Of a stretch of DNA of 64,000 bases, positions 4,503 to 60,764 are shown piece by piece. Origin of the DNA: Symbiodinium natans (Eukaryota > Sar > Dinophyceae > Suessiales > Symbiodiniaceae); assembly GCA_905221605.1 (NCBI GenBank), contig CAJNDS010002630.1, forward strand, positions 273,704 through 337,703. Direction: 5' to 3'. The position numbers and the translations under genes are program-made. The first letter of the stretch is position 1. Every line of letters starts with the position of its first letter. The notes under the pieces are model-generated. The model did no database searches. It saw only the letters and a program-made list of their open reading frames with translations, and was not told where the DNA came from.

Positions 4503-6053
4503 AGCCTCTTCAGTGGCGATTCGCTGGAGGAGGTGCGGGTTGAGCTCATGGCTTCCACCACTTAAGCCCCTTTGCTTGGTGTGCAGAGGCTCTCCAGCAG
4601 GTGCAAGGGCGGATCGGCCAGGTGTCGCCGGCCAGGCTTCTGCAGGAGCCCAGTTCTGGGGTGCCTCCCAATTCTGAGGGCTTCCACGGCATATTTGGGT
4701 TTTCGGTCGTGTGCCAGTCGGCATGGAGTGGTGAGCTGCACTGACTGAAGAATATATAACCAAGCATGTAACTTTTGAGCCATGCGACAGTGGACACTGA
4801 GCCAACTTTGCCGCAAGATGCCACTGCCCTAGTGTCGGTGGTAGGCGTGCATTGAAGTACCTTGAAGGAGCTGGAAGACAAAGAGCCCAGCATCCTTTTG
4901 CGCACCAAGGCTTTGGGGGGATCGTGGCTCAGGCTTCAGGATCTTCAGCAGTTGTTCAACTTGAGTTCTTTTCCCCAGGACTCGGGGCTGATAAACTAAG
5001 GCAGCGTCTGACATCATCGAGCGTCAACTTTTTTTTGTCATCCACGGCCTGAACCGTAGCTCAAAGAATGGTCTCAGCTCAGCCAACAGCTCAATGATAC
5101 TCGTGTGGGCCTTGTGCAACAGGAGCTGTCCGAAGGCAAGCTGGCACAGGAGGTCTTGCAGTTGGATGGATGGCGCGGGCAGGCGTGTGTGGACTCTCGT
5201 TGCGCGAGAACAAGAACAACAGCACTGACAACAACAGAAGGGCAGCAGTACTGTAACAATCGCAAACTACATGTCTCATCAAAATTGCGGCTACTATGAA
5301 TGCCAGAATCGCGAATGTCCAAATGCCAGAAGGACAACTCAACCACCAACGGCAGCAACAGCACACCGACCGACATCAGCAGCTCGCAGAAGTGGGAAAA
5401 GCCACGGCAAGGAGCAGGTCAAGACCATACATGCAAGATACACTGAGGTTTAGGGTTTAGGGGTAGGGCTGGGGTTTAGGGTTTGGGGTTACGGTTTAGG
5501 GTATGGTTCTCTTGCCAGGTGGCGGCGCGATTGCTGCTGATCGAGAAGCAGCTGGCCCTGGAGATGTTGGGACCTGCCACGCATGAACAACGTAGATTTC
5601 CAATTTTAGGCATTCTAGTGGCAAGTCTGCTTCGATTCTGCGGATGCAGAGTTGCTGCATTGATGCAAGCATTATGTAGAGGCCAGGCGGCAGCTTTTCC
5701 CATGGTTACTGCAGGACTTGCGCAGTCAGCCGACAGCACATCCATCACAAAGGCCTTCAAGAGACGCGCCGTGGAGCTACATCCTGACAAAGGTCCCTTG
5801 GGGATAGCAGCGGATAGCAGTAATAGCAGTGGTGCTTTCGGTATCGGAGAGTCATTCAGCAATTCAGCCAACATGTCCAGGCAGTTTGATGACGCTGTTG
5901 TTGATGGGGCTTCTGCGGTCCCTGCAGGGGGCGACCAGGAGGAGTTTCAGCTTCTCCAGCAGATGAAGGATGTCCTGCTGGGTTCGAAGGCATCGGCCGA
6001 GAAGCAGGATGACGAGACTGGAGTCAGCGCGACGCTGAACGGCAAATTACATG
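4503..6053 (+). CDS. coiled-coil J-domain (DnaJ/HSP40-like) protein, multi-exon
   Basis: Joined exons encode a J domain, the module that stimulates ATP hydrolysis by Hsp70 chaperones. Proposed exons are 4503-4550, 4589-4705, 4868-4978, 5078-5182, 5519-5570, 5715-5792 and 5928-6053. All joins are in phase. The last three give LALEMLGLAQSADS, then KAFKRRAVELHPDKG with the invariant HPD loop, then GDQEEFQLLQQMKDVLL (helices III-IV). The exons upstream are rich in Q, L and E and look like a coiled coil. Donors are GC (4551, 5183), GT (4706, 5793) and GA (4979, 5571), all ending AG. Intron 5793-5927 is 135 nt without a stop, so the frame falsely appears continuous. The intron before 5519 ends in degenerate telomere-like repeats. 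The first exon is not fixed. An acidic/basic segment at 6150-6230 (KRSSEAFGDSQDTDDEID) may be a further exon. The J-domain call is firm; the coiled-coil linkage is inference. Confidence 0.75.
5448..5506 (+). repeat. degenerate telomere-like array inside intron
   Basis: TTTAGGG-related units (GTTTAGGG, TTTAGGGG, GGTTTGGGG) run up to the acceptor TTGCCAG at 5512-5518 that precedes a J-domain gene exon. Confidence 0.7.
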
Positions 6054-6398
6054 GTCAATGTTTGACTAGTGGGCTGACCGGTCTTCCCAGCCATGCACAA
6101 ACCCTCAAGCCTAAGAAAGAGATCTCTGCGTGAGCCAGCGAGCAGTCAGGTCGCCGCGAAAAAGAAGCAGCGAAGCATTTGGAGACTCCCAAGACACTGA
6201 CGATGAGATCGACAATTTGCTTAGGAATCGAGGCTGTGGCGGGATTTTGTGGGTTCTGCACTTGGAGGAATTCCATACTGTGAAAGCCTGGCAGTTTCGC
6301 AAGCATCCCCCCTCACCGGCATGAATGAAGAAGCCCAGCAGTATCGGACCTCACCAACAGGAGCCGCTGATGAGGCCACGCCGGCCCAAAGCCGCACC

Positions 6399-6546
6399 AG
6401 CCGCGGCTTGCTTTCAGTTGGGTGTGCAGTTCTACTGCTAGCTTTTCCTGCCTCTCGCGGTTGAGTTCGCGGAAAGTCCCCATGTCAAGCCACTCAGCCC
6501 CTCCAAGCCAAGCGCCAGCTCTCCGAGCATCTTGCCGAAAGCGCAA
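6399..6546 (-). CDS. possible minus-strand helical segment
   Basis: The minus frame reads GTFRELNRERQEKLAVELHT, a charged helix unlike random sequence. It is the only minus-strand segment in this part with that character. No family is recognised and a (CCCTAAA)n array lies just to its right, so this may be an exon or chance. Confidence 0.2.
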
Positions 6547-6574
6547 GCTGAGCTTAGCAGCATGTGCGGAGTTG

Positions 6575-6633
6575 ACCCTAAACCCTAAACCCTAAACCCT
6601 AAACCCTAAACCCTAAACCCTAAACCCTAAACC
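6575..6633 (-). repeat. interstitial telomere-like array (CCCTAAA)8
   Basis: About eight nearly perfect CCCTAAA units on the + strand, equivalent to TTTAGGG on the minus strand. Confidence 0.9.
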
Positions 6634-6729
6634 GCCGTTTCCAGGCAAGGCTGGACTGCAGGCCAGCCGCGTGAAGCTGCACCAAGCCGCCGCCTGGCAG
6701 GGATGTCATGTTGCGCCATGAGCACCTGG

Positions 6730-6875
6730 CGGTTCATGGGCAGCTATAAGTAGGGTTTAGGGTTTAGGGTTTAGGCTTTAAGCTATAAGTAGGGTTATAA
6801 GTATGGTACTTATTCTTATAACCGCAGTTAGGGCACTTATGACCGTGCTTAGAGCTACCTCATGAACCTCGGGTA
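6730..6875. mobile_element. MITE-like foldback element, family B copy 2, carrying telomere-like units
   Basis: The ends GGTTCATGGGCAGCTATAAG (6731-6750) and the complement of CTCATGAACC near 6860-6870 match family B copy 1 at 2760-2850 but are diverged. Internal sequence repeats the TATAAGTAGGGTTATAAG motif and includes four TTTAGGG units at 6751-6778. Confidence 0.5.
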
Positions 6876-6948
6876 ACAGTGTGCAGGAATTGGTCAGGTT
6901 GGGTGAGACTCCGTGGGGTGAAGACTTGGCTGCGTTCTTTTTTTGCAG

Positions 6949-7558
6949 GGTTCGTGCCTACGTATTGCTAGGATCAGTTGTGCTCTACCGCGAAGACGGT
7001 TCAATGCCGCAAGCTTCCGCAGACTTTGAGGTGTCCCACGCTTGGTCCCGTTGCGGGCGGCTGTGCTCGCAGCTGTCCAGATACAAGCAGGCGGGAGAAG
7101 GATCGCTTTGCATGCTTTGCACAGGGCCACTGAAGAAGAGCCTCACTCAGGGCCCACTCGCGTGCTGAGTCAGGCAGGTCAAGGCCCGCATGCTGATCTT
7201 TTGCTGGCGCCTCTGGAAACCTTCCTTGCCAAGTTTGAGCAGGAGATGGAGTTCTGGGACCCACACGCTAATTAGGGGGTCTTCGGTGCAGCTGTAGACA
7301 TGTTGTAGAGGTTCTAAAACTATAACCCTATAACCCTATAACCCTAAACCCTAAAACCCTAAAACCCTAGGGAACCAAGACCTTCCTGAATGATCACCCA
7401 GGCCCAAGGCCCACAGTCCTGCGCACCAGTTTAGGGTTTAGGGTTTAGGGTTTAGGCTTTAGGACCAGTCCACAGGAGGGCGAAGAGCCGCGATGTGCGC
7501 CCGATGGCTCACGCCTGGGCTTGTTGGTTTCACGAGGCCTTCCTCCCAAAATCCTTGG
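6949..7558 (+). CDS. unidentified multi-exon gene with a telomere-like mini-intron
   Basis: A T-rich acceptor (TTTTTTTGCAG at 6938-6948) opens a frame reading RAYVLLGSVVLYREDG and then a cysteine/serine-rich stretch. Two further segments, 7371-7428 and 7463-7558, join in phase to give TKTFLNDHPGPRPTVLRT followed by RAKSRDVRPMAHAWACWFHE. The 34-nt gap between them (7429-7462) begins GTTTAGGG and ends CTTTAG, so it reads as an intron built of telomere units. The first of the two segments is preceded by AG at the end of a CCCTAAA-type array. No family is recognised. Exons between 7150 and 7371 are uncertain. Confidence 0.4.
7321..7370 (-). repeat. degenerate C-strand telomere-like array
   Basis: Units drift from CCCTATAA to CCCTAAA to CCCTAAAA, ending CCCTAG immediately before a coding-like segment at 7371. 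Confidence 0.8.
7429..7462 (+). repeat. 34-nt telomere-unit array, candidate intron
   Basis: Four to five GTTTAGG-type units starting GT and ending TTTAG, placed exactly between two coding-like segments that join in phase. Confidence 0.75.
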
Positions 7559-7677
7559 GTTTAGGGTTTAGTGTTGAGGGTTTAGGGTTAGGGTTTAGGG
7601 TGTAGGGTGTAGGGTGTAGGGTTTAGGGTTCAGGGTTTAGGGTTTAGGGTTTAGGGTTTAGGGTTTAGGGTTTAGGG
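7557..7677 (+). repeat. interstitial telomere-like array, variant-rich
   Basis: About 17 units, mostly TTTAGGG with variants GTGTAGG, TTCAGGG and TTAGTGTTGAGGG toward the left. The right end is pure TTTAGGG and stops two bases before the spliced-leader relict at 7680. Confidence 0.9.
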
Positions 7678-7679
7678 GC

Positions 7680-7701
7680 ACCGTAGCCATTTTGGCTCAA
7701 G
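7680..7701 (+). other. dinoflagellate spliced-leader (DinoSL) relict, full length
   Basis: All 22 positions match the dinoflagellate spliced leader consensus (ACCGTAGCC at the 5' end, GGCTCAAG at the 3' end). It is followed by more leader-derived sequence, not by a splice donor, so it is a genomic relict of a trans-spliced mRNA and not an SL RNA gene. Such relicts mark retroposed cDNAs in dinoflagellates. Confidence 0.95.
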
Positions 7702-7730
7702 CCATTTTGGCTCAAGCCATTTCTGCTACG
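7702..7730 (+). other. second truncated DinoSL relict and possible third
   Basis: Bases 7702-7716 repeat the last 15 nt of the leader exactly (CCATTTTGGCTCAAG). Bases 7717-7730 (CCATTTCTGCTACG) resemble it a third time with changes. Nested leaders with the complete one outermost are expected when a recycled cDNA is trans-spliced and reinserted again. Confidence 0.9.
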
Positions 7731-8412
7731 AGGCCATAATCTGGCAAAATCCCAATTCGTGCATTCCCCAAGTGAGCTGCAATGGAGCGACGGTTGACGT
7801 CCTGTGTTGCCTACGCCTTGCGTGTATCCTACAAGATGGAGGTGCCAAGTGTGACAGAACACCTGAAGTCTGCGTTACACTGCGTTCGGACAGGATTTTG
7901 CACATGTCCATCTGGATGAAGCTGTTGCCCAGCGCCAGATCGTCAGGTTGTATGATGCTTTGCAAGATTGCAAGACGCAGCATCTTGCCGACGCGTCCAT
8001 ACAAACCGAAGCAAACATGTGCACTGAGATGGAGTGCAAGGCTGTTGCTGAAGGAGTGTTGAAGACTGCTCAGGCTCGATTCGAGAAGCTTCTTGCGCAG
8101 ACAGAGATGATCATTCAAGACCGAGATGCAACCATTCACCGCATGGAGATTGATCTTGACTCACGGATTAGTCAGATGCAGGCACTGGTGCATGGTATGA
8201 AAGTCTCCACGGATGTATGTCTGCCAGAAGTTGGGACTACAGCTCGGGCAAGCAGCGTCGCAACATCACAACCTCTTCATGAGAGTCCGCTGGACCTGCC
8301 GGAAGGAAATCATCAGTTCCTGATTGATCAACATAGGAAACATCGGATGGAGACGAAGCAAAGAAGGAAAGCAGAACGATTGCAGCGCCTACAGGAATAT
8401 GGAGATGGATGA
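7717..8412 (+). CDS. SL-tagged retrogene encoding a coiled-coil protein
   Basis: This is a processed, intronless copy downstream of nested spliced-leader relicts. The frame 7867-8412 (stop TGA 8410-8412) has no ATG until 8017, giving 131 residues. Open sequence upstream of that ATG continues the same composition. The product is charged and helix-forming (KTAQARFEKLLAQTEMIIQD; C-terminal KQRRKAERLQRLQEYGDG), so a coiled coil is likely. A second frame opens at ATG 7782 (MERRLTSCVAYALRVS) and ends near 7917; a one-base shift around 7880-7890 would join the two, so the copy may carry a frameshift. No family is recognised. Whether it is expressed cannot be told from sequence. Confidence 0.6.
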
Positions 8413-8510
8413 GTGAGTGTGTGTGAGTGTGCCTTGTGTTTCAAGCTTTAGTTCATGCCTCGTGATGCACGAGCCATATAGCACAGATTGCGTCAGATTG
8501 CGTGATGTGA

Positions 8511-8572
8511 CTTCTGAGAAGCTGCATGCTTGCCGGCAGCCCCCAAAGTCCGTTGCTCAAAAGGGTTTAGGG
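8511..8572 (+). repeat. 62-bp dispersed repeat R1, copy 1
   Basis: The stretch is 62 bp with about four differences from 20606-20667, and both end in TTGCTCAAAAGGGTTTAGGG. A shorter piece of its 3' end recurs at 52416-52437. Confidence 0.85.
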
Positions 8573-8950
8573 GCGTAGTAGGTTGTTGTATGTTGTAGGG
8601 TCGTTTGGTTGGTTCGTTGCTGGTACGCTGGCATGACGTGTTGGTGACTGGTCACCCGATATCAGTCCGAAGCGGAAGACGAGATTTGATTGGAAATCCG
8701 TAGTGCGTAAGCTGCAGGAGAGTGATATGGGGGAGGAGGGGCGGGGGGGGGGGGCTTCTCTAAATTCAGATCCCTTTCAGGGGTGACTGTTTTCAGGCGA
8801 CCCGCAACATTTAGGGCACCCAAAGGGGGACCATAATTTTGAGAACTGACCATAGCGCCTTGGGGGCGCTTCCTTCCCTGTCAGGTGCAGAGTTCCTGGG
8901 TGCCGCCGCCCTCCTGGACCCCGAGGTGCCACAACAAAAGCACAGCACAG
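8573..8950. other. no gene seen
   Basis: The stretch contains a short G-run (8744-8753) and no domain-bearing frame. Confidence 0.3.
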
Positions 8951-9081
8951 CGTTTAGCGTTTAGCGTTTAGCGTTTAGCGTTTAGCGTTTAGCGTTTAGC
9001 GTTTAGGGTTTAGGGTTTAGGGTTTAGGGTTTAGGGTTTAGGGTTTAGGGTTTAGGGTTTAGGGTTTAGGGTTTAGGGTTT
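8951..9081 (+). repeat. two-part array: GTTTAGC variant then GTTTAGG
   Basis: Seven perfect GTTTAGC units (8952-9000) switch at one point to about eleven and a half perfect GTTTAGG units (9001-9081). Each half is homogeneous. Confidence 0.95.
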
Positions 9082-9774
9082 GAGGACTCACACTGGCACA
9101 AAGCGGGGGAGGCTGCTTTTCGACTCTCAGGGATTAGGGTTGAGGGTTTAGGGTTTCGAAGGAAAATGATACAGCCTATTGTATGTAATGGCAGCACTTG
9201 TACTAACGGATTGCGCCTCCGCCTCGGCCTCTGGGGTACAGACGTAAGTTGGAGGACGCAGGTCAAAGACTTGAAGAACCTTCCGCATTCAAGAAGCTGA
9301 CTTGATGCCGACTTTTTGCCCACAACGATCATGAAGCTCTGCTGGGCTTGCGACGGGCTGCAAAACGGGATGCTCTGAGGCACAGTATGGGACCGCCATG
9401 GACACCCCCTCACCACCCCCGGCCCACCACTGGGAAATTGAGACCTCCTCCGGGTGATGTCCTGTCCTAAAGAGTCTCCGGTTCTCGACTCGTACTTCGT
9501 GCGCTTGGCTCTGCAGGCACTTCCCCCTTTGTGAAGTGCATTGAGAAACAAGGAAGAGAGCACTCCCGGAGGGCAAGGAGCAGATGGAATTTGTGATCAA
9601 GCCCATGAGCCCTGCAGCTGGCAGAGAGCCCCAACAACCGCAGCGGCACTGCCCGAGCGCTACAGATTCTAAAGCCACAACGCTGGCCAAGGTAGGGGCT
9701 CCAGGACCAGAAGTATAGGACCTGGCTTCCAAGGACAGGGGCTCGATCAAGAAGCGTCATGGACTTCAAAATCG
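9082..9774. other. exon-like segments without an assignable gene
   Basis: On the + strand 9238-9302 reads RRKLEDAGQRLEEPSAFKKL after an AG, and 9310-9380 is also open and charged. Minus-strand frames of 137-165 codons overlap here with no recognisable domain. I cannot build a gene. Confidence 0.28.
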
Positions 9775-9846
9775 TGGGGAGGGGGGGGGGGGGAAGGGGA
9801 GGGGAAGGAAGGGGGGAAGGGGGGGGAGGGGAAGGGGGGGGTGAGA
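9775..9846 (+). repeat. G-rich polypurine tract
   Basis: About 70 nt of almost only G with scattered A, including a 14-G run. It could form G-quadruplex or triplex structures. The complementary strand gives a spurious proline-rich frame. Confidence 0.9.
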
Positions 9847-10187
9847 GGGTCTCGCGAACCTGTTGAAACCTAATGCACAACAGGGCTTGAATCAGCTATG
9901 ATGTTAGATCAATGAACGAGGGTGTCGACCGAAATGGCAGTTGCCAGAAAGCACATTTCCTGCGCAGGCAACTCTTGCAGTCCTGACGAAGAGTGGCCAC
10001 ATGTCAGAGATCCAGGAGCATGAGGGGTGGCCGCGACTGATGCTCGGATGCGACTAGAGGTTGCGGGATGCAAAACACAGGTGGCGAACACCGATGCCCG
10101 CCAAGGATTGAATCAATGCGCAGGCTCCCATCACAGGAGCTGCCCTGAGTTGAATGATCATTGGGCTGAGGCTCCAGACGCCTGCAG

Positions 10188-11245
10188 GATACTCAGAGAC
10201 TCCTTGAGGCCACTGCTCAAAAGACTGAGGTAGAGTCCTTCTTAGCTTCAACCCAGCAGCTCGGCCTTGAGGGCGCTCCTGTGGCGAAGCCTGCAAAGGA
10301 AGCTGAGCCCGGCCTCTTGACATTCACAGAGAAGTCTTCAGCATCATTTTCCAGGGTTTAGGGTTTAGGGTTTAGGGTTTAATCATTTTCCCTTGTTGGA
10401 CTGGATTTTGCCGTAAGCGGGAGCCACCTGTAGCTTGCTTCATGCCAAACGCCCCTCCCCCCACCTGCCGCCCTTGTCTATATCCCTTTGATAATTGTTT
10501 TTTTGTTTTTGTTGATTTAGCGGCTAGCGCCAGTGCCGCCGACCCCAGACAGGGCATTAGGGTTCACTAGTCCGGCAGAGGTAGGCTAGTGTAGGCTAGC
10601 CGAGCGGCTGAGCGTGCGCCGCAGGCTAGGACTAGGCGGGACAGAGGCATCGCAGCAGGAAGGGCCAAGGTTTAGAGTTGAAGTGCCAGGGCAGGGCTTG
10701 TAAGGGTAAAGTGTTGGGGACTGGGGTGGAGGGCTAAGCTAAGTACATCCTGAACTCAAAGTCCTATAGACACTCCCCGGCAGCTGCGCTCGAGCCCGAG
10801 GTTTTGAACCCCACGCCCCACTTAGAATACCTGAAAGCCCAAACCCTACCAACCACCTCATACCCACACTCACTGTCATTACCTCCAAAACCCTAGAATC
10901 CTGACAGCTTTAACCTTTGGCAACCTTCAGCCCTCAGACGTTTATGAGGTTTGGGGCTTCAAGGGCTTCAAGCGCCTCAGCCCCAGAAGCCTGAAGCTCG
11001 AAGGGAGCCCTTGGTCGGCAGCAGCGACAGTGCTGCCACTTCGTCGGCCAAGTGCCGGCCTGCCGTTGGGTTTAGGGTCTTTGGGGTTTGTACTGAAAGC
11101 TCCAAAAAACCCTAATCCAGAAACCCTAAACCGTAAACCCTGAACCCACACATCCCGAAACCTTAAGCCTCAAACCCAGCATCCCAGACTCGAAGTTGCA
11201 TGGTGATCCGGAACCAAGCTGGGACCATCCTCCAACGGTTTGCGC
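10188..11245 (+). CDS. proline-rich/helical multi-exon protein, unidentified
   Basis: Four in-phase exon candidates are visible. Exon 10188-10355 (56 codons) follows CCTGCAG and reads QRLLEATAQKTEVESFLAS and later KPAKEAEPGLLTFTEK. Exon 10521-10580 (20 codons) follows a strong T-rich acceptor (GTTTTTGTTGATTTAG) and reads APVPPTPDRALGFTSPAE before a GTAGGC donor. Exon 10981-11069 reads PEARREPLVGSSDSAATSSA. Exon 11180-11245 reads IPDSKLHGDPEPSWDHPP. The first and third end exactly at GTTTAGGG sequence. Phases agree at the 10355/10521 and 11069/11180 joins. The N-terminal part is coiled-coil-like, the rest proline-rich. No domain is recognised and both gene ends are open. Confidence 0.5.
10356..10382 (+). 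repeat. telomere-like array at exon end
   Basis: Nearly four GTTTAGG units begin exactly where the coding-like segment 10188-10355 ends. The following T-rich acceptor at 10520 closes a possible 165-nt intron. Confidence 0.85.
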
Positions 11246-11916: not shown

Positions 11917-12066
11917 GGTTCAGAGGTGGAATCAGCTTGTTTTTCTCAAGTCATGCTACACGTCCGTGGGGACATAAGGTAAGTTCGCCTAGTTCTCTAT
12001 TTCACGTTCACTGAACTGAAGTTCCCATTCACTTTTGCGCCATTCTTCGTCAAGTCTTGTCGCCAG
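11917..12066 (+). promoter_or_regulatory. possible leader acceptor and 5'UTR intron of the FNIP-repeat gene
   Basis: CCTTGCAG ending near 11917 could be a trans-splice acceptor. GTAAG at 11979 with AG at 12065-12066 would remove an 88-nt intron and place the ATG one base after the junction. This is inference from splice-like motifs only. Confidence 0.3.
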
Positions 12067-12067
12067 C

Positions 12068-14323
12068 ATGCGGCCGTTGACCATACGCTGTCTTGCCGGC
12101 TCCACGTTTGAGCTTCATGTGGACGATGCGGAAACGGGGCTGGATGTGCGGAGACGCATCGCAGGAAGTGTCGGCCTTTCCGCAGGGTCAATCGTGCTGA
12201 CTTCAGGTGAGCATCTCCTCGAACTGCACCAGCCGCTGCTGCGACAAACTCAGAACCAAGAACTCACATATGTGGTGCGTAAACGTGGCGCAGGCTGCGC
12301 GGCACGCAGCATGAAGCGAGCATTAGAGAACACCGGATTGGATCAAGACACGGATGCCATGGATGTCATTGTTGCCTTGACCTTCCACAGCTACAACCGG
12401 AGCTTGGAAGGGCTGCAGATTCCCAGCAGCCTACAGGCCTTGACCTTCGGCCATAATTTCAATCAGAGCTTGGAAGGGGCGCAGCTTCCCAGCGGCCTAC
12501 AGACTTTGACCTTCGGCCATAATTTCAACCTGAGCTTGGAAGGGGTGCAGCTTCCCAGCAGCCTACAGACCTTGACCTTCGGCTCTAAGTTCAACCAGAG
12601 CTTGGAAGGGGTGCAGCTTCCCAGCGGCCTACGGACCTTGACCTTTGGCTTCAGCTTCGACCAGAGCTTGGAAGGGGTGCAGCTTCCCAGCGGCCTACAG
12701 ACCTTGACCTTCGGGCACAGATGCAACCAGAGCTTGGAAGGGGTGCAGCTTCCCAGCAGCCTGCAGACCTTGACCTTCAGCTCTGATTTCAACCAGAGTT
12801 TGGAAGGGGTGCAGCTTCCCAGCGGCCTACAGGCCTTGACCTTCGGCGACGGCTTTGACCAGAGCTTGGAAAGGGTGGAGCTTCCCAGCGGCCTACAGAC
12901 CTTGACCTTCGGCGATGGCTTCGACCAGAGCTTGGAAGGGGTGCAGCTTCCCAGCGGCCTACAGATCTTGACCTTCGGCTATGAATTCAACCAGAGTTTG
13001 GAAGGGGTGCAGCTTCCCAGCGGCCTACAGACCTTGACCTTCGGCCATAATTTCAACCTGAGCTTGGAAGGGGTGCAGCTTCCCAGCGGCCTACAGACCT
13101 TGACCTTCGGCTCTGAATTCAACCAGAGTTTGGAAGGGGTGCAGCTTCCCAGCGGCCTACAGACCTTGACCTTCGGCTATGATTTCAACCAGAGCTTGGA
13201 AGGGGTGCAGCTTCCCAGCGGCCTACAGATCTTGACCTTCGGCCATAATTTCAATCAGAGCTTGGAAGGGGCGCAGCTTCCCAGCGGCCTACAGACCTTG
13301 ACCTTCGGCCACAGATTCAACCAGCGCTTGGAAGGGGTGCAGCTTCCCAGCAGCCTACAGACCTTGACCTTTGGCTTCAGCTTCGACCAGAGCTTGGAAG
13401 GGGTGCAGCTTCCCAGCGGCCTACAGACCTTGACCTTCGGCTGTGAATTCAACCAGAGCTTGGAAGGGGTGCAGCTTCCCAGCGGCCTACAGATCTTGAC
13501 CTTCGGCTATGATTTCAACCAGAGCTTGGAAGGGGTGCAGCTTCCCAGCGGCCTACAGACCTTGACCTTCGGCCACAGATTCAACCAGCGCTTGGAAGGG
13601 GTGCAGCTTCCCAGCAGCCTACAGACCTTGACCTTTGGCTTCAGCTTCGACCAGAGCTTGGAAGGGGTGCAGCTTCCCAGCGGCCTACAGATCTTGACCT
13701 TCGGCTCTGAATTCAACCAGAGCTTGGAAGGGGTGCAGCTTCCCAGCGGCCTACAGATCTTGACCTTCAGCTATGATTTCAACCAGAGCTTGGAAGGGGT
13801 GCAGCTTCCCAGCGGCCTACAGACCTTGACCTTCGGCTCTGAATTCAACCAGAGCTTGGAAGGGGTGCAGCTTCCCAGCGGCCTACAGACCTTGACCTTC
13901 GGCTATGATTTCAACCAGAGCTTGGAAGGGGTGCAGCTTCCCAGCGGCCTACAGATCTTGACCTTCGGCTATGATTTCAACCAGAGCTTGGAAGGGGTGC
14001 AGCTTCCCAGCGGCCTACAGACCTTGACCTTCGGCCACAGATTCAACCAGCGCTTGGAAGGGGTGCAGCTTCCCAGCAGCCTACAGACCTTGACCTTTGG
14101 CTTCAGCTTCGACCAGAGCTTGGAAGGGGTGCAGCTTCCCAGCGGCCTACAGACCTTGACCTTCGGCTGTGAATTCAACCAGAGCTTGGAAGGGGTGCAG
14201 CTTCCCAGCGGCCTACAGGCCTTGACCTTCGGCGACGTCTTCGACCAGAGCTTGGAAGGGGTGAAGTTTCCCAGCTCATTGCGGCACTTCTCCTCGCGCG
14301 TGTTTGAGGTAGAGACCCGTTAA
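12068..14323 (+). CDS. ubiquitin-like domain plus FNIP-repeat protein
   Basis: This is a 751-residue uninterrupted ORF, the longest in the window. The frame is open further upstream, but 12068 is its first ATG. Residues 1-75 (MRPLTIRCLAGSTFELHVDD, then a hydrophobic beta-rich pattern ending LTYVVRK) look like a ubiquitin-like fold. After a linker, 28 complete 22-residue repeats (DNA 12392-14239, 66-bp period) and one partial follow. The consensus is FNQSLEGVQLPSGLQTLTFG plus two variable residues, matching the FNIP repeat family known from Dictyostelium and giant viruses, which forms a leucine-rich solenoid and usually binds proteins. Repeats are nearly identical in DNA, with a 4-unit block duplicated three times, so the array expanded or was homogenised recently. 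The C-terminal 15 residues break the pattern. A partner is unknown; a scaffold or ubiquitin-pathway adaptor role is inference. Confidence 0.88.
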   Translation: MRPLTIRCLAGSTFELHVDDAETGLDVRRRIAGSVGLSAGSIVLTSGEHLLELHQPLLRQTQNQELTYVVRKRGAGCAARSMKRALENTGLDQDTDAMDVIVALTFHSYNRSLEGLQIPSSLQALTFGHNFNQSLEGAQLPSGLQTLTFGHNFNLSLEGVQLPSSLQTLTFGSKFNQSLEGVQLPSGLRTLTFGFSFDQSLEGVQLPSGLQTLTFGHRCNQSLEGVQLPSSLQTLTFSSDFNQSLEGVQLPSGLQALTFGDGFDQSLERVELPSGLQTLTFGDGFDQSLEGVQLPSGLQILTFGYEFNQSLEGVQLPSGLQTLTFGHNFNLSLEGVQLPSGLQTLTFGSEFNQSLEGVQLPSGLQTLTFGYDFNQSLEGVQLPSGLQILTFGHNFNQSLEGAQLPSGLQTLTFGHRFNQRLEGVQLPSSLQTLTFGFSFDQSLEGVQLPSGLQTLTFGCEFNQSLEGVQLPSGLQILTFGYDFNQSLEGVQLPSGLQTLTFGHRFNQRLEGVQLPSSLQTLTFGFSFDQSLEGVQLPSGLQILTFGSEFNQSLEGVQLPSGLQILTFSYDFNQSLEGVQLPSGLQTLTFGSEFNQSLEGVQLPSGLQTLTFGYDFNQSLEGVQLPSGLQILTFGYDFNQSLEGVQLPSGLQTLTFGHRFNQRLEGVQLPSSLQTLTFGFSFDQSLEGVQLPSGLQTLTFGCEFNQSLEGVQLPSGLQALTFGDVFDQSLEGVKFPSSLRHFSSRVFEVETR
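12392..14239 (+). repeat. 28-copy 66-bp coding minisatellite
   Basis: Exact 66-bp period. Higher-order 264-bp blocks at 13250-13513, 13514-13777 and 13976-14239 share the same order of variant units (those ending HR, FS, CE or SE, and YD or DV). Confidence 0.95.
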
Positions 14324-38136: not shown

Positions 38137-38170
<34 letters not shown>

Positions 38171-40827: not shown

Positions 40828-40829
40828 GG

Positions 40830-42600: not shown

Positions 42601-43150
<550 letters not shown>

Positions 43151-43159
43151 TTGCTTGAG

Positions 43160-49530: not shown

Positions 49531-49545
49531 GAGCACTCGAGCCAT

Positions 49546-51955: not shown

Positions 51956-52023
51956 GTAAGTCATTCGACAGGACCAGGCAGACCCTGCCAAGATCGCGAA
52001 GGAGCACTTGCTAGCGCCCGAAT

Positions 52024-52630: not shown

Positions 52631-52834
52631 GTGTAGAGCCCTTCACAGTTTGGCCAGGGCAAGCTCTGTCATGCTACCTCATCACCGTTGCATGCAAGCC
52701 CCGTGTAGTGTGATTCTTCAAGCGGCCCGAATCCTAAGCCCTAAACACGAGCCCTGAGCCGTCGAGGCAGGGGAACTCGTGCTAAACTCGACAAACTTGA
52801 AGGCCAGGAGTTGGGTGGGGGGGTTTAGATACGA

Positions 52835-52943
52835 CCAATTGCTTAAGAAGCCCCAAAAAATATAAAACTTTCTTCCTTATAAGGGTATAATGTAGGGATT
52901 ACTGTTTTTTGAACATTTTTGGGGGGAGTTCTGAAGCAAATGG
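52835..52943. mobile_element. MITE-like foldback element, family A copy 3
   Basis: CCAATTGCTTAAGAAGCCCC and its imperfect complement GGGGGGAGTTCTGAAGCAAA bound AT-rich sequence. Confidence 0.65.
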
Positions 52944-53447
52944 TAGTTTATGGGGCGGTTGCTGCAGCCGAAGGTTGCGCTAGCTTAGCGTGAGCCACAG
53001 TGTGCACAACAGCATATCCCAAGCCTTTCCGCACCAGGGGTTCAGGGTTTAGGGTTTAGGGTTTAGGGCAGTTGCTTCTACTGACGATGCTTTCGGCAAA
53101 ACCCCGAGAAACGGCAGGAGAATGTAATTTGTATGAAGGCGCAAAAAGAAATGGTCAAGTTTATCTCACCGAACTAGATGCCGGGCATTATGAGCAAAAG
53201 AAGACAACAAGCCATTGAAGAAACACGAAATGCTTCGAGACCGACCGAGAACTTAAATGAATTTATAGCACTCATCCCTGTATCAAGGCTGGGCCAAACC
53301 CAGTCAGTCTGAAGCTGCGCGAGTTTCCTTCAGCGTGCCCATAATGAAACAGGCTGTATACAGCTGCTCGGCAGGCCACTGTAAAGAGCTAAGCAAGCCC
53401 GGCAGATTCGTAGTATCGAATTGCAGGCCGGTTCCAGCAGTTAAGAT
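52944..53447. other. short TTTAGGG array and no gene
   Basis: Four telomere-like units at 53040-53069. The rest has no domain-bearing frame. Confidence 0.35.
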
Positions 53448-53691
53448 ATGTTGAAGTGTGTTGAAGTGTGGGACAAAAACGCCACAATATTTCGCGATGT
53501 GGTACATGAATGGAGCATGACTGCGACTTGGGAGGCACGTTTCAGCCTCAAGACACACGAGTTCGGAGAGTGGCTGCTACCGGGCTTCGTGGCCTCAGCA
53601 CCTGGCTTTGGATCCTTGAACTTATTTGAGATTTTTTAACTTTGGCATTGTCTCTCAGAGTTCTGCGTCCCACGGATGCTTAGCAAATCAT

Positions 53692-54165
53692 ATGGAAGTG
53701 TTGCAAAGGACCTCTGCCGGAGGGCAGCGCTGGTATGTGTCGCCCGGACAGCCGAGGCGTGATTTCCTGGTGCGACTGTTCTGGTCACTTTCGGCTAGAG
53801 ATTCGTTTCTTAGGAGAGCGCATGTACTCGGAGTGGCATCCATTCCGCTCTCCACCGCAGGTTGCGAACTTGACATGAAGGCGGCTACAGAGATTCTCGC
53901 GAAGCTTAAGGCCATCAGCGCGGCGGCCGAGCAAGGCTTTGGAGGAACGTTGAGAGCAGCCAGCCTTCTTCTCACGCGAGAGATGCGACCGGGCGGTCAT
54001 TGGGCAGTTCACCTGATAGATTTGGCACACTACACGGAGACAGCTGAGAAACGGGATGACAACTTCTGCGATGGTTTGCAGAATTTGGTCCGCACGTGGG
54101 AAGAATGGTGTGCGGCAGATCCCCCACAGTCTTGGTTCACCGTCTGTTGCTTTGCACGCAAGTGA
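53692..54165 (+). CDS. hypothetical single-exon protein, 157 residues
   Basis: ATG 53692 follows a strong T-rich acceptor (TTTGGCATTGTCTCTCAG, ends 53660) that could be a trans- or cis-splice site. The frame runs 157 codons to TGA. The product is mixed and protein-like (RRDFLVRLFWSLSARDSFLR; MKAATEILAKLKAISAAAEQ; LQNLVRTWEEWCAADPPQ), probably soluble and helical. No family is recognised. The minus strand is open in parts but less convincing. Confidence 0.45.
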   Translation: MEVLQRTSAGGQRWYVSPGQPRRDFLVRLFWSLSARDSFLRRAHVLGVASIPLSTAGCELDMKAATEILAKLKAISAAAEQGFGGTLRAASLLLTREMRPGGHWAVHLIDLAHYTETAEKRDDNFCDGLQNLVRTWEEWCAADPPQSWFTVCCFARK

Positions 54166-54349
54166 TCAGTGCACCTCCCATCATGACGCTCAAAAACTGA
54201 GCGCTTGATTTGAATTTTTTGTAAGTAGGCTACGCAGGATGTCGGTTTCCTAGGGTGCAAACAGAACATTGCTGCGGGAGCCTCCGGAGGAAAAAAAAAA
54301 AACAAAAAGGTTGTTGGATGCTTGCTGGGCCACACCATGCCACGCCTGC

Positions 54350-54553
54350 AGGGTTTAGGGTTTAGGGTTTAGGGTTTAGGCCTGCTGTAGAAAGGGTTTA
54401 GGGTTAGGGTTTAGGGTTTAGGGTTTAGGGTTTAGGGTTTAGGGTTTAGGGTTTAGGGTTTAGGGTTTAGGGTTTAGGGTTTAGGGTTTAGGGTTTAGGC
54501 CTCAGCCCAGGGGTTAAACGGGTTTAGGGTTTAGGGTTTAGGGTTTAGGGGCA
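54350..54553 (+). repeat. composite interstitial telomere-like array
   Basis: Three blocks of TTTAGGG (about 4, 16 and 4 units) separated by short unique spacers. Confidence 0.95.
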
Positions 54554-55030
54554 ATTGCCAGTGAAGGCATGACTTGAACAGCAGGGTGAAATGGGTCAGG
54601 GTTTGAGATGTCAGAACCGACGTGAGAGTATGATATACACATCAATGTGGACGAGTCTAGACTTAGGCACTTAGAGATTAACTGGGAGGAGTAAGATACC
54701 CATGTTGTTGCTGATCCCGGGGTTCAAGGTGCATGCAAGAAGCTTGCATCAAGGGAAGGCGCTGTCAGCTCACAGCAAGTAGGCAAAGGCGGCACGGTGC
54801 TGTCTCATTTTCCCAGCCATGTTACGATTCCTCGCCCCCCTTGCCACTGGCATGGGTGGCTTGGCACCGTGAAGCAGAGCCCTTGAGCCTTGAGATCAGC
54901 CGTCAGAAGCCTCCCTTGGAACAATCCTAGTTCGTCTGGCCGGCTATGCCTTCCAGCAAAGGCCTAGGGCCTAGGACCACCAGTTTAACATGTGCATAGC
55001 AGCGATCTTTATACAGCAGCTTTATACCAG
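54554..55030. other. upstream of the transporter; first exons not found
   Basis: The N-terminal exon(s) of the following gene should lie here, but I could not identify them. Confidence 0.3.
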
Positions 55031-58000
55031 GCTTGCTCACTGACAAGTACATGCTCGGTGCCACCAACTTCGTTGAACACTATGCTCAAGATTTTCACGC
55101 CACTCCCGCACAGAAGGACCGCTTAGCAATTGGCAGTGACACGTTGCTGCGCGCCCCTAGTGACGACTCTAGGGGCTTGCGTGCTCAATGCAGGCAAGGG
55201 GGTTTTTGTGCAGTGCTATGGATACATTCTGCCATGGCTTATGTGACAGCGACGTGATGTTTTTTTCACGCTTCGCGGTAGAATGCAGGATTTCGTGAAA
55301 GCGGCGATGTACGCTGGGGCTATTCTGGGCATGCTTGTCATGGGCGGCATTGGCAGCACCATAGTGACTGGAGCATGTCTTGGTCTTGTCGGACGGAATA
55401 CTGAAGAGACCCTAAACCCTAAACCCTAAACCCTACAGGGTCTGCAGGAATGAGTTGTGGCTTGCACTGGCCACTTCAGGTCCGGCGTCTGATTACATTG
55501 GCCGCCGAATGGGGCTGCTTCTATGCTCCCTCATCACACTCATTGGTACCTTGCCTTACGTGAGCTTCAAGGTGAGTTCCCAAAGCCAGCATTGGACCCA
55601 ATTCAAAGACCTTGCAAAAGCTGAGGTGCTTTGCTTTCGGCTTTGGCCTGGAGTGAGAATACCCTCATCGCAGCCCGCTGCTTGGCGAAGAAGAGCTTCA
55701 GCACGACGGCGGCACAGCTACTCAAGCGGAACCCGGGCGTGCGCAACCTGCAAAGGGTTTCAAATAACGGCTAGAATCAGAACAACGTTGTCTGGGACTG
55801 CACGTATCTTGGCCACTCAAGGCAACAGCCGGAGGCAACATAAATGAAGCCCGAATGTACTTGTTAGACCTCCCCAGGCATCATTACTGGAGTCGGCATG
55901 GGTGGCGAATACCCGCTGGCATCTTCGCATTCGGCCGAGACCTCGGAAAAAACCAGTCGCTCTACTGCAGCCCCATGCCCCTCCCACTTTGCAGCGGCCC
56001 CGGGCTTTCAACAGTAGAGATCCACCCACGCTCAAAGGCCATCGCTGTCACAAAACGGTTGCAACACGAATCATTTCTTGTTTCACTGAAAGTTTAAAAT
56101 CACATTTTGAAGAAATATACATGCAAGATTTGACCATGCTGAAGGCATTGCTCAATGCCATCAAGTGCATAGGCTTTGGCGGCATGTCGAACGGATAGTA
56201 AATAGAACCCCAGCGTTTGTACATTTAGTTGCCATCTACTGAAGGCGCAGCTAGCATGTGGAAAGGGGGCACAAAGGAGAGAAGATGCATTAGGGATGCA
56301 CCTTTCTCACGTAGTTCCCTGATGCTGCCACGTGTGATTCGAGGTCCATAGTAGATGGCGCGACTTTGTCGCCCAGTCCTTGCCCAATCCCAGAAAATGA
56401 CTTCGAACCGGATGTCCGTCTTCAAAACTCAGGTGATGGCGCTCGCAATGTAGCTTTGCTCTACCTGTTCGGAAGTGGATTTGGGCAGGCGCTATGCCCA
56501 ATGGTGACCTACGCGATGGACGTGTCTTAGCTGCAGGGAAGATGCGGGAAGTTCTGAATGATTTCTGGGAGCGAAAGCGCTGCAAGTTAGCGGCTGCCTG
56601 CTGGCTGGGCCTGTGAATCCTCCGTCTAGGGGGCTGAGACATGTCCCAAGGATCCCCCGTATATAAAGCCGGCGAGAAGCCATGGCCTGCATTGCACCCA
56701 GCACTCACCTGGGCCCTAGCAAGGGTCAAGAAAAGAGAGCCCTAAACCCTAAACCCACTCTCTAAGGTCGGCGGGGTCCCCCATGAACAGCTGTGGCGAT
56801 GGATCTTTGGAACCTGGGCGGCTTTATTGACATGGGGGTTTCTATGAAAAAAATAGGGTTTAGGGTTTAGGGGGTTTAGGGTTTAGGGTTCAGGGTTTAG
56901 GGTTTAGGGTTCAGGGTTTAGGAAGGCACCCCTAATGTTCGTAAACCCCCTATATGCCATGGCCCTTAAACCCTAAACCCTAGCATACTGCTGCAGACGA
57001 CACACGCCTCAAAGCGCATACCTGCCCCGAGATTGGGTGCCCCTCGAAACAGCGCCCCTCAATCCGAATGCCCCGTCGCTTTCGAAGAAACACGGCGCAC
57101 ACGATCATCGAGACAGTTATCCCCCTGGTTCTTAGTAGGGAATGAGGGCCCTATATAAGTCCTTAAAGGGTATATATATAGGGCCCTCATTCCCTAATTC
57201 CCTCTACGAAGAACCAGCCAGTTATCGCGAAAGTCAGCGGGGCTGGGCTTGAGAGTTTGGTCTTGCTTGCCTTTCGCAAGTACGGCCAAACAAGGTAGGG
57301 CCAAGCTGTGAGCTTGATAGCTTGATTCTGTCATAGGATGGGAGGAGGGGGGGGGGGTGGCAATACTGAACCGTTAGAAGTAATTTTCGTTTTTTGGTCT
57401 GGGGGCTTGATTGTCGAGTTTGGTTTTTACGGCGTCATGGCTTGACTTTCTTGCGCCGCAGCTTTCCTCGGAGTGACTCATCGGCAGAGGCCGCGCCAAG
57501 GAGGTGAACTTTTCTGGGGAACAGCGGCCCGGCACCCCTCTGTCCTCCAAGACATAAAGAACGCGCGAACCCATGGGAATAGCGTAATAGTATAACAGTA
57601 TGATAGTGTAACAGCATAATAGTATAGTAGTATAACAGTATAGCAGTATAACAGTATAACAATATAACAGTAGAACAGTAGAACAGAAAAATAGGAAAAA
57701 CAGTAGACTAGTAGAATAGCAGAATAGAAAAAGGATAGCAGCATAACAGGATAATCGTTGCTTCCCGCGTCATCCTGCAGCCAAGGAGTTGGCGTCATCT
57801 TGTCAGCCCTTGGGCTGGTTTTACGATACCTGACCACCCAGGAGAACCCAGGTTTAGGGTTTAGGGTTTAGGGTTTAGGGTTTAGGGTTTAGGGTTTAGG
57901 GTTTAGGGTTTAGGGTTTAGGGCAGCTTCAAAGTAGACCCTCAGGGAACGCCAGCGCAGGAATTGACGCATGTGTAGCCGAGTCGGGAAGCGGCAAGAAG

Positions 58001-60764
58001 AACAAGTAGCAAGTCATTGCTGCCGGGGAGGACAGCCAGAAGTTTGTGGAGGGCAAAGAGGCTTCGCATGCACGGCTTTGTGTTTGGAGGCTTCAAGGCT
58101 TATGAGCTCGCAAGCTTGTGCCTTGCCTTTTTGCAACATGAAAAAGGTCTCTTGCATGTGTGAGTGTTGCACGGCCAGATGGAGTGGAGCTGATTCAGCA
58201 CTAGGCTCTAGGTGGCAATGCAGTTACAGAAGTGCTGGCGCCACTCAGAGGCAGAACAAAAGCATCACGACACCACCTGGACTATTCTGGCTCCGTACTG
58301 GAGGACAGGGATCTGCGGGCATCCTTGTCGGTCCGTGTTTCGCCGCTTCTGTTGCCGCTATTGAGTATGATTGTGTATCCCATTGTGAAACCTGCTTCAC
58401 GGTGTCCACCTTTTTGGCGGCTCTCAAATGAAAGTTGGCGGCAACGCAAGGATAGGCAAGGCGGACGGATGCAACTTTCGAAGAAACAAGAGTTTTCCGT
58501 CCTTGATTACGACGCTTTCACGACAACCAGATCCTGCACTCGCGGAGGCAACTAGACCTACTTCTTGGGGCTGATAGGTCCTCATGCGCGGTCAGGTCAC
58601 GCAGCAGAAACTCCTACAGGCTCTACACCCTGCAGCCATGAACCGTAAGCAGTGCTGCGGAATTAAAATTTCCAAGGTCTCCGAGGGCTTGCGAGGAAAA
58701 AGTCAGCGGCCTTAATGGCAGCAAGACGGGAGTCACGGCGGGAAGGTGCGGTGGAAGATCTTACAGCCTTCCTTTTGCGCCGTCAACGTGGAATGGTGAC
58801 TATGTAGAGCGGTAAAGGAAAGAAGTACTGTTCAGCTTCCCACTCGTTCTAGTCAGGGCGCTCCTGGGTACTGCCGGATGTTGGCTCTTGTTCGACATCG
58901 TCGAGTACGGCCACCCGGGCTGAAGCAGATCACTCAACTCCGCATGCTGTGGAGCAAGCTTGCGAAAGCTTCACATTTAACCCGAAGACGTAGGATGTAT
59001 CTGTATACATTTCTATATATTATACTAGATACTTCCTCCTGCAATAGACATAAGACACTTTCTATCTGTGTGTATATATACATGTATATATATATATATA
59101 TATGATGCCAGAGCCCCCCAGCAAGGCTTGAAACAAAACGATGCGGCGATCTTCCACTCGGACGACGGTGGCCCTTACTCCGACAGCATCCTCCAAGTAC
59201 CCGAGCTGCGCCTGGGGTTTAGGGTTTAGGGTTTAGGGTTTAGGGTGCCCCCTCTTGAGTGGCATGTTGTCGTCATGGGCAGTGCAGCAGTCCTAGCCGT
59301 AAGGAAGGGTTTAGGGTTTGCTGTTTAGGGTTTAGGGTTTAGAGCTACAGCACCTTCGTGGCTCTTGGCAACATGCTGTGATGTGGTGTAGGGAGACCTC
59401 GGACAAGAGAGCATGGTGTAAAGTGTGGGTCTGTGTGGGATTCGGGTCGGGACGGCTGTAGCAATGGAACCGAGGTGTTGTGGAGCCGCCTCCTTGTGAT
59501 CCCATCGCTACTGAGCAGATCAGAAGACGCAAGCAGTACTTGTTGCAGTCCCTGCTTGAGGATGTGTGACATCAATCAGCCGAGGTTGATCTTTGCGCCA
59601 TGGTTTCTGACAAAGGCACCCATTGGTAAATGCTCCTTTTGAACTGAACGTCTCCGAGTTCCACTAAACAGATGCCCCTCCATCCAACAGAACACCTAAA
59701 CAGGCCCGGCAAGTGACATGTGAGACAGCCCGATGCCTCAGCAGCGGCTTACACCGAAACCGGGCAGAAGCCACATCGGCATTCGGCGTCTTCGCGACAG
59801 CCCGAGCAGTCTGCAAGCTTTGTGGATCCACATGGGCCAGATGAGCTGGGCTCCCCCCAAATGAACCCTAAACCACCCCTGCCCCACGTCCCACAGCACA
59901 CAAGCCTGAAGCCCTGTGTACCTAAGCCCTAAACCCTAGGGCCACCAAAGCCTGCTCAGACCTCCAGCAAGCGCGTTCAGTTCATTGGCTTCTGTGGATG
60001 CGCGGTTGCCAATCTAGTTTTGGCAGCTGCTTTGCGGCAGTGGACCTGTGAAAACCTGCTGTGTTTTACGTGGAACTAGCTGTCGAGTTTGGCTGCCCAA
60101 GGGTTGTAGGCAATGCAGTAGAAAGCAGGTGTAGCTTGGCATTGCTATGCAAGATGAGTCTTGGCTTTCAACCATGCCTTTTGACTCCGATCTCTCTTCT
60201 TGCACAGATTCAGCAAGGTTGCCTTCAAGGAGCTGAGAGAAATGGACTCACTGTTTTTTACGCTCTACATCCTGCAGCTGTCCTTCCAGAGCTTGCCGGG
60301 GGCTGCCTGTCGGGATTTAAAGGGTGCAGATGTCGACATGCCAACTCTCAGCCCACCACTGCCATCTTCGCATGTTCTTTCCGCCAAAGCAAGCATCTGC
60401 ATGTTCGGTTCTGGTGTGTAGGCTTTCGGGATGGGTTGTCATGGACTGTGCGCATGTCGGCCTTTCCTGTTTCGGCAAGAATGACCAGTGCTGGAACCAG
60501 CAAGGTCACAACAATGGCGATCTCTGCAGAGTCCCTCAGCACAAAACATTTTCTGTCAAGGCATGTCAAGGCTTTGGCCGCGGTTCGTAACGGCCCTCTG
60601 CCCAAACTGTGGACTTCCCAGAAGAGGTCTGACCTCTCCAGCCATCACTCTTGCTGTTTTTCGGGCTTCAAAGGATCTACCCCAGCATGGTCCGTGGCAC
60701 CGGCGCCGGCATCAGCGCAGCAGCTGGAAAGCTTGGCGCCACCATCGGCTCCTACTTCTTCTCA
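55031..60764 (+). CDS. PHO84-like major facilitator phosphate transporter, about 14 exons
   Basis: Homology-guided exons join in phase into an MFS protein of the phosphate:H+ symporter type, a plasma-membrane importer with 12 helices. Exons: 55031-55116 (LLTDKYMLGATNFVEHYA), 55289-55352 (KAAMYAGAILGMLVMGG), 55480-55650 (SDYIGRRMGLLLCSLITLIG), 55878-55958 (GVGMGGEYPLASSHSAE), 56433-56514 (LYLFGSGFGQALCP), 57781-57851 (QGVGVILSALG), 58857-58909 (LLGTAGCWLLFDIVEY), 59126-59196 (LKQNDAAIF), 59475-59520 (LWSRLLVIPSLL), 59960-60036 (KRVQFIGF), 60208-60301, a 26-nt mini-exon 60505-60530 (VTTMAISA) and 60674-60764 (IYPSMVRGTGAGISAAAGKL). The D-x3-GRR loop and GGEYPL motif are family hallmarks. Donors mix GT, GC and GA; all acceptors are AG. 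Several introns hold telomere-like units. The region 57852-58857 must contain unplaced exon(s). The start and the last helix (perhaps 60949-61010) are not fixed. The substrate could be another organic anion. Confidence 0.82.
55408..55434 (-). repeat. CCCTAAA units inside transporter intron
   Basis: Nearly four units inside the 127-nt GC-AG intron 55353-55479. Confidence 0.9.
56853..56983. repeat. telomere-like arrays of both orientations inside transporter intron
   Basis: TTTAGGG units at 56853-56924 and CCCTAAA units at 56965-56983 (also 56737-56754), all in intron 56515-57780. Confidence 0.85.
57125..57217. mobile_element. MITE-like foldback element, family C copy 2, in transporter intron
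   Basis: CTGGTTCTTAGTAGGGAATG and AGGGCCCTATATA pair with the right end. The centre CCTTAAAGGGTATATA is shared with 51851-51955. Confidence 0.65.
57581..57745 (+). repeat. 8-bp tandem repeat TATAACAG/TAGAACAG
   Basis: About 18 diverged 8-bp units, related to TATAATAG at 21660-21765, inside transporter intron 56515-57780. Confidence 0.88.
57852..57922 (+). repeat. TTTAGGG array starting at a transporter exon end
   Basis: Ten perfect units begin immediately at the GT donor after exon 57781-57851. Confidence 0.92.
59068..59103. repeat. TA microsatellite in transporter intron
   Basis: GTATATATACATGTATATATATATATATAT-type tract (59072-59102) within intron 58910-59125. Confidence 0.9.
59215..59343 (+). 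repeat. two TTTAGGG arrays in transporter intron
   Basis: Units at 59215-59246 and 59308-59343 lie within the 278-nt GT-AG intron 59197-59474. Confidence 0.9.

Follow-up and report, generated by a model that had tools for sequence, protein, structure and literature searches.

In human, horse and rodents, short interstitial telomeric sequences have been described at repaired double-strand breaks as pure internal tracts that sometimes lie between copies of a duplicated target, and the accounts of these loci give target duplications for 3 of 66 telomeric insertions in horse, 6 of 130 in rodents and 4 of 25 in primates (PMC7215372, PMC2246262). According to the same accounts none of the human sequences lies in an exon and 31% lie in introns, a share that fits random insertion. 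In plants, telomere-type motifs known as telo boxes (AAACCCTA) are scattered in and near genes, and Gaspin and colleagues suggested that they stem from telomerase acting on free 3′ ends linked to transcription (PMC3022908). Repetitive DNA of another kind, the introner elements, has been reported from dinoflagellate introns (PMC9860276; Roy 2023 as cited in PMC11453091). Here we describe arrays of TTTAGGG, the telomere unit reported for dinoflagellates, in 64,000 nt of the genome of Symbiodinium natans (contig CAJNDS010002630.1, positions 273,704 to 337,703; hereafter the window), a free-living dinoflagellate (PMC8045281). Within the introns of four genes of the window these arrays take a preferred orientation relative to the exons: the G-rich strand points away from the exon, whichever side of the exon the array is on.

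The window contains 144 TTTAGGG and 73 CCCTAAA units, where base composition predicts about 4 and about 3, and local alignment groups these units into 50 arrays. An earlier reading of this DNA (the original prediction) had claimed that such arrays lie within introns of recognisable genes, and spliced alignment confirmed this: 24 of the 50 arrays fall inside 59 modelled introns of four genes, all read on the + strand, while no array was found in a modelled exon and none spanned a junction. The intronic enrichment that was expected with this claim was also observed in the window, with 24 arrays in 18,973 nt of intron compared to 26 in the remaining 41,567 nt of non-exonic DNA, which may itself include unmodelled introns; the density differs about twofold (binomial P = 0.010).

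The intronic arrays are polarised. Arrays reading TTTAGGG on the + strand (n = 13) have a mean relative position of 0.21 within their introns and those reading CCCTAAA (n = 11) one of 0.71 (orientation permutation, P = 0.0004). Closeness to the splice sites was looked at for four distances (10, 20, 35 and 50 nt). Eight of the 13 TTTAGGG arrays lie within 35 nt of the donor, compared to 2.1 expected under uniform placement per intron (P = 1.3e-4), and 5 of the 11 CCCTAAA arrays lie within 10 nt of the acceptor, compared to 0.57 expected under the same placement (P = 8e-5); in these five cases the acceptor comes 3–10 nt after the array. The opposite combinations, TTTAGGG at acceptors and CCCTAAA at donors, were unenriched at all four distances. 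Leaving out any one gene gave P values of 0.0005 to 0.005 for the polarity, and the two genes with identical S. natans proteins alone gave 0.0035. The rule is mirror-symmetric and can therefore be tested without knowing the strand of a gene. We regard the polarity as well supported in this sample, but it was noticed after the fact in the data on which it was first tested.

The splice sites underlying these distances were obtained by homology. Alignment of two S. natans proteins to the window was free of mismatches: P0001 (394 of 394 residues identical, 54819–61115, 20 introns) in a GIT1-type transporter gene (54819–61499), and P0121 (296 of 296, 49544–54162, 11 introns) in an inositol polyphosphate kinase gene (49544–54165; PF03770). 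For the transporter, the same junctions were obtained from P0006, which is transcript-derived, and P0012, the three alignments concurring at every common junction, and homologues indicate one further intron. The models of the other two genes were built on proteins of relatives. A CCCH zinc-finger gene (33771–40080) was modelled by spliced alignment to P0143, P0151, P0145, P0144 and P0153; its model is uncertain at both ends and introns past 40039 were excluded from the intron set. A HAD-like gene (41101–45920), whose 5′ end was not found, was modelled on P0153 of Symbiodinium sp. CCMP2456, which is identical at 251 of 257 residues in the HAD part. In a one-strand Pfam search with stops translated as X (1–10001, 15001–44502 and 50001–60002) the kinase gave the single match above the cut-off, with DnaJ and HAD appearing as weak hints only. 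The 59 modelled introns have 30 GC, 16 GT and 13 GA donors, and in 58 of them the acceptor AG is followed by G; they fit the dinoflagellate spliceosomal type and match a review's account of Symbiodiniaceae (PMC11453091). The aligner admitted only GT, GC and GA donors with an AG acceptor, slightly preferring GT and giving a small bonus to AG|G. We nevertheless consider the splice-site classes credible because of the full identity over 394 and 296 residues, and we trust the splice sites because these two proteins are joined by homologues, one of them transcript-derived.

Within the CCCH gene, intron 34772–35164 carries TTTAGGG-type arrays at 34780–34816 (8 nt from the donor, as placed by two of four homologues) and 34851–34880 (79 nt) together with a CCCTAAA-type array at 35112–35159, 5 nt from the acceptor. 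Another CCCTAAA-type array (35618–35666) lies 36 nt from the acceptor of intron 35525–35702, and TTTAGGG arrays were found at 35944–35964, 23 nt from the donor of intron 35921–36287, and at 36517–36654, a degenerate array in the middle of intron 36332–36845. The HAD-like gene has a CTTAGGG-variant array at 41686–41795, 24 nt from the donor of intron 41662–42156, and CCCTAAA arrays at 43859–43880 and 44394–44446, which lie 3 and 5 nt from the acceptors of introns 43591–43883 and 44226–44451. In the kinase gene, TTTAGGG arrays at 49590–49629, 52354–52464 and 53036–53068 lie 14, 32 and 233 nt from the donors of introns 49576–49697, 52322–52766 and 52803–53534, and a CCCTAAA array at 52097–52245 lies 4 nt from the acceptor of intron 52002–52249. 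The transporter gene contains TTTAGGG arrays at 56832–56922 (22 nt from the donor, intron 56810–57785), 57850–57922 (8 nt, intron 57842–58030), and 59213–59246 and 59299–59342 (16 and 102 nt, both in intron 59197–59474). Its CCCTAAA arrays lie at 55409–55435 (44 nt from the acceptor, intron 55344–55479), 56740–56756 (10 nt, intron 56522–56766), 59919–59938 (21 nt, intron 59616–59959) and 61284–61316 (mid-intron, 61117–61458).

These alignments also bear on the origin proposed in the original prediction, namely that arrays inserted into exons became introns by themselves supplying GT and AG, coding-like segments appearing to stop exactly at GTTTAGGG. The repeat does hold GT and AG in all phases, and GTTTAGGG does begin immediately after seven of the eight positions that had been named (10355, 11069, 34785, 40916, 49593, 52359 and 57851); at the eighth, 41690, it begins one base later (41692). 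However, at all four places where a clear test could be made the donor given by homology lies upstream, at 57842 (GA) and not 57851, at 49576 (GA) and not 49593, at 52322 (GC) and not 52359, and at 41662 (GC) and not 41690, so that the true donors are GA or GC, 9–37 nt before the array-derived ones. The claim probably fails at a fifth place, 34785, as well: two homologues put the donor at 34772 (GA), one at 34760 (GA) and one, in a poorly aligned acidic stretch, at 34793 inside the array. Positions 10355, 11069 and 40916 are without a homologue and stand outside this comparison. The ends appeared exact because the reading frame had been carried through a GA or GC donor as far as the array, which stopped it; the 7-base repeat has TAG in every frame and so halts any of them. 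No start or end of the 59 modelled introns falls in an array, the one placement to the contrary being the single alternative alignment, out of four, just mentioned, and spliced alignment rules out arrays as splice sites for the introns compared. Moreover, the transporter, kinase and HAD proteins are colinear with those of relatives at array-bearing junctions, so that the arrays in these genes did not turn into introns by being inserted into exons. We consider this origin hardly credible. Some of the intron limits proposed earlier held, 35768–35881 and 59197–59474 being exact, while others had to be moved: 55353 became 55344, 35605–35683 became 35525–35702, a start at 57852 became 57842, and 56515–57780 resolved into two introns (56522–56766 and 56810–57785).

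For better evaluation of the polarity we compared the arrays with other sequence features of the same introns. Other G-run and C-run clusters (12 and 9) were not polarised; the telomeric arrays differed from the G clusters with P = 0.0006 and from the C clusters with P = 0.064, positions being rounded in this comparison. The 39 array-free introns showed no residual polarity motif, and outside the arrays the density of GGG was equal at both intron ends. The unpolarised G-run clusters argue against a general G-run code, and a code of G-runs and C-runs at intron ends was rejected, trinucleotides being unpolarised as well.

Polarity was further analysed in twenty 10-kb pieces (200 kb) of the same genome, sixteen of which run in order through the initial 160 kb of the contig that holds the window; the remaining four are from contig C1, three of them picked for arrays known there. 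In this sample, 82 of 120 arrays had the stronger coding-like sequence on the predicted exon side, 5′ of the G strand (P = 4e-5; 1 of 121 was lost at a locus edge). The effect was weaker when telomere-like flanks were excluded (35 of 45, P = 0.0009; 22 of 30, P = 0.026) and absent 100 nt away. Neighbouring arrays with gaps of 25–150 nt faced outward in 24 cases and inward in 9, a difference reached in 0 of 5,000 permutations; for gaps up to 300 nt the counts were 27 and 18 (P = 0.017), and for window neighbours with gaps up to 200 nt they were 8 and 2 (P = 0.015). Per base, segments between outward-facing arrays were more coding-like than the remaining gaps (32 versus 32, P = 4e-4), this comparison also taking in short loci from searches for transporter and CCCH paralogues. 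A single repeat family filling the outward-facing pairs was rejected, as just 4 similar pairs were found among the 32 segments. Around kinesin exons 6 of the 8 nearest arrays obeyed the polarity (P = 0.14) at an array score of at least 14, and 6 of 9 at a score of at least 12; this tally covers 14 of the 98 matches listed, hand-picked for short open frames roughly in score order and with flanks unseen, six of the pieces having an array. On the right-hand side of one of these pieces (L062) two arrays, scoring 12 and 18, have the same sign, which leaves the 6 of 8 unchanged.

Across the whole genome we counted 2,369,589 matches to (TTTAGGG)3 on both strands as overlapping 21-mers, compared to 74 for the reversed control; (CTTAGGG)3 gave 50,335 matches and the 21-mer of TTAGGG 152. 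The exact telomere unit predominates, which points to telomerase. Tandem copies of this unit occur across the 64-kb window and at many places on the 3.4-Mb contig C1, as is characteristic of interstitial telomeric sequences. Extrapolation from the sampled 264 kb gives about 570,000 perfect runs, or about 25 Mb, a figure that includes true chromosome ends and comes from a sample with about half of the genome's mean array density. The density is patchy, with 0–1 array per 10 kb at 40–110 kb of the window's contig (L026–L032) and 17–30 per 10 kb at 235–265 kb of C1 (L019–L021). Direct repeats of at least 9 bp flank 6 of 170 arrays, while 0.44 would be expected from shuffled flank pairs; for this test array limits were trimmed to exact 9-mers, whereby 49 of the 50 window arrays were retained. 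Exact 10-bp repeats abut a pure array at two sites, at 10353 of the window and 9704 of L021, and in the window a 29-bp TTTAGGG array lies between the two abutting copies (10343–10391, + strand).

Several further features were recorded. In L025, 15-bp direct repeats enclose about 1.8 kb of telomere-type sequence (6239–8011). The 21-mer GTTGCTCAAAAGGGTTTAGGG occurs in the window at 8552, 20647 and 52416 as a common non-telomeric lead-in to telomeric sequence and is absent from the other 200 kb scanned. Short palindromic elements of several kinds, resembling miniature inverted-repeat transposable elements, were found at 2755–2860, 6725–6880, 51855–51955, 57128–57210, 42040–42145, 52835–52950 and 42215–42335; some of these are intronic, and the pairs that were compared are modestly similar. 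A scan of viral contigs for the telomere repeat returned nine stretches.

The explanation that we prefer, with a probability of about 0.4, is that the arrays are interstitial telomeric sequences left in pre-existing introns by breaks that were healed from the exon side. Telomerase-type DNA would have entered the genome in short tracts at a very large number of internal positions, most likely during break repair. Breaks would fall just outside exons, the exon-side 3′ end would be extended by telomerase, and the extended end would then be rejoined to the rest of the intron; tracts landing in introns already present would be removed with the intron through ordinary GC, GT or GA donors and AG acceptors outside the tract. 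We infer telomerase, the breaks and priming from the exon side, and we prefer healing from this side because it accounts both for the mirror symmetry and for the closeness of the arrays to both intron ends. Insertion into existing introns fits best because the proteins are colinear at array-bearing junctions and because the duplicated exon ends that an insertion into an exon would leave behind show no more than a slight excess.

A number of observations weigh against this explanation. A break offers two ends, and our observations give no reason why the exon end should be used. No flanking repeat of at least 9 bp was found at 164 of the 170 arrays. Some of the 24 intronic arrays lie mid-intron, and three are clear exceptions to the polarity: a TTTAGGG array at 35833–35849 lies 65 nt from the donor and 32 nt from the acceptor of intron 35768–35881, a CCCTAAA array at 44544–44560 lies 18 nt from the donor of intron 44526–45504, and a CCCTAAA array at 56963–56982 lies 153 nt from the donor and 803 nt from the acceptor of intron 56810–57785. 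Polarity is absent among the window arrays that lie elsewhere than in modelled introns (13 of 26), and in strictly unmodelled window DNA 11 of 23 passed the coding-side test. Genome-wide, the acceptor-like GCAGG closely follows CCCTAAA arrays 9,678 times and TTTAGGG arrays 11,893 times, with 1,836 and 2,518 occurrences of the scrambled control GACGG. The resulting odds ratio of 1.12 has the predicted direction but amounts to an excess of 12% only, and unadjusted counts of GCAGG are larger after TTTAGGG, opposite to the prediction. This means either that arrays immediately next to acceptors are few or that degeneracy of the repeats on the G-rich side makes the test less sensitive. Within 20 nt in the local sample GCAGG gave 10 versus 3, and CAGG (30/31), AAGG (23/26) and GAGG (17/21) showed no excess.

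Selection at the level of splicing could produce the same pattern without any preference of the repair process. According to this main alternative, which we find rather doubtful, arrays are inserted anywhere and in both orientations, act as splice signals in the pre-mRNA, and survive only where they reinforce a true site. UUUAG|G resembles an acceptor and would be harmful near the true one; the C-rich and AG-free CCCUAAA would favour the next AG downstream and be harmless only right before the true acceptor; weak GC or GA donors may be helped by G-rich tracts. A single assumption thus covers the orientation and the closeness to both ends, and it agrees with the CCCTAAA repeats, which lack AG and in 5 of 11 arrays precede the acceptor by 3–10 nt. 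It also agrees with the eight donors that have a TTTAGGG array within 35 nt, which comprise 4 GA, 3 GC and 1 GT compared to 13, 30 and 16 among all 59, a comparison of raw counts. However, about nine in ten arrays of the intron interior (our estimate) would have to have been purged, which calls for very strong selection, and the unpolarised G-run and C-run clusters, the array-free introns and the even distribution of GGG described above do not fit a splice signal of this kind. The polarity might also be an accident of a small sample, the arrays being merely dispersed repeats in non-coding DNA. That it was described post hoc, that the unmodelled window DNA is flat and that the genome-wide motif signal is weak all favour such an accident; in view of the two tests in a separate 200 kb and of the leave-one-gene-out tests we hold it to be unlikely. 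Of similarly low probability is a variant of healing in which the introns of this lineage are recurrently cut at their ends, for instance by the excision of introner-type DNA transposons, and telomerase adds a cap to the exon-side ends, which are rejoined afterwards. Exons would become small islands from which telomere tracts face outward; like fossils, these tracts would record how introns were born and excised, and those between 9–10 bp duplications would be healed excision sites.

Arrays could alternatively be the terminal inverted repeats of a mobile intron, an introner-like element that inserts as TTTAGGG...CCCTAAA. For S. microadriaticum, introners have been reported that have inverted ends and 4-bp duplications (PMC9860276), and intron 34772–35164 has just this form, with an array near each end, a common TCTAGGGG variant and the top inverted-repeat score of 30. 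It stands alone, however, among the 20 array-bearing introns in having arrays close to the donor as well as to the acceptor; inverted ends are barely in excess (3 versus 1.3 expected at a score of at least 14), and so are in-register direct repeats at the splice sites (4 versus 1.6 expected, at least 6 nt). The introner analogy of the original prediction is not supported as stated, the slight excess of duplicated splice-site sequence notwithstanding, and introns as terminal-inverted-repeat elements or as recent insertions with duplicated splice sites receive little support across the class. Such an origin appears improbable, a little more so than a sampling accident. Some introns may belong to a family shared within the window, where intron-to-window matches are at least as many as those listed.

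Other observations concern the genes and their surroundings. In P0153 ('mex-5') of Symbiodinium sp. CCMP2456 the CCCH and HAD parts, which correspond to 33771–45920 here, are joined in one predicted protein, and in S. natans a candidate separate start (MSTEPASRKRKAEAEPAEAN) lies between the two parts near 40829, so that the joined protein may reflect faulty annotation or a difference between lineages. The 20-intron transporter gene has paralogues that occur as single unbroken open frames at C275:102367–103674 and C2521:127062–128369 and are perhaps retrocopies. Being single-exon they contributed no further introns, and the search for CCCH paralogues gave no additional intron models. A TGCTGT hexamer array of 303 bp (42687–42989) occupies much of intron 42659–43073 of the HAD-like gene. 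An open frame of 767 codons (12020–14323) contains about 28 copies of a 66-bp repeat (SLEGVQLPSGLQTLTFG...), which we take to be of the leucine-rich type.

The arrays of S. natans resemble each of the three described systems in part. With the mammalian interstitial telomeric sequences they share pure internal tracts that sometimes lie between duplications, and their duplication share of 6/170 is close to those of horse and rodents and below that of primates. The same sources list 83 human, 79 chimpanzee, 244 mouse and 250 rat loci (the last two being sums of table rows), whereas S. natans has 2.37 million overlapping 21-mer matches, and the mammalian accounts used here mention no orientation relative to exons. 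Plant telo boxes are likewise telomere-type motifs in and near genes whose spread has been attributed to telomerase on free 3′ ends, but in the published account they are single units, of one repeat plus one base, concentrated in 5′ UTRs and promoters, with introns unenriched overall and only the first two richer, whereas in S. natans multi-unit arrays lie near intron ends. Introners are also repetitive DNA of dinoflagellate introns; as described they carry or co-opt splice sites and create introns, while the S. natans arrays exclude the splice sites, and at junctions with arrays three of the four genes keep colinearity with relatives. Polarised telomeric arrays in introns were not among the structures described in the titles and opening lines of abstracts that we searched on telomeric repeats and introns, dinoflagellates and introners, a search that covered few subscription journals. 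If the pattern held across all genes, DNA from telomere repair would be a main builder of introns in a dinoflagellate, and the fixed orientation to exons would require that breaks be formed and healed in connection with intron ends, or else an effect of the telomeric RNA sequence on splicing, a question that is raised in the horse interstitial-telomere study. Taken together, it is by their number and by their orientation relative to exons that the polarised arrays are set apart from known interstitial telomeric sequences.

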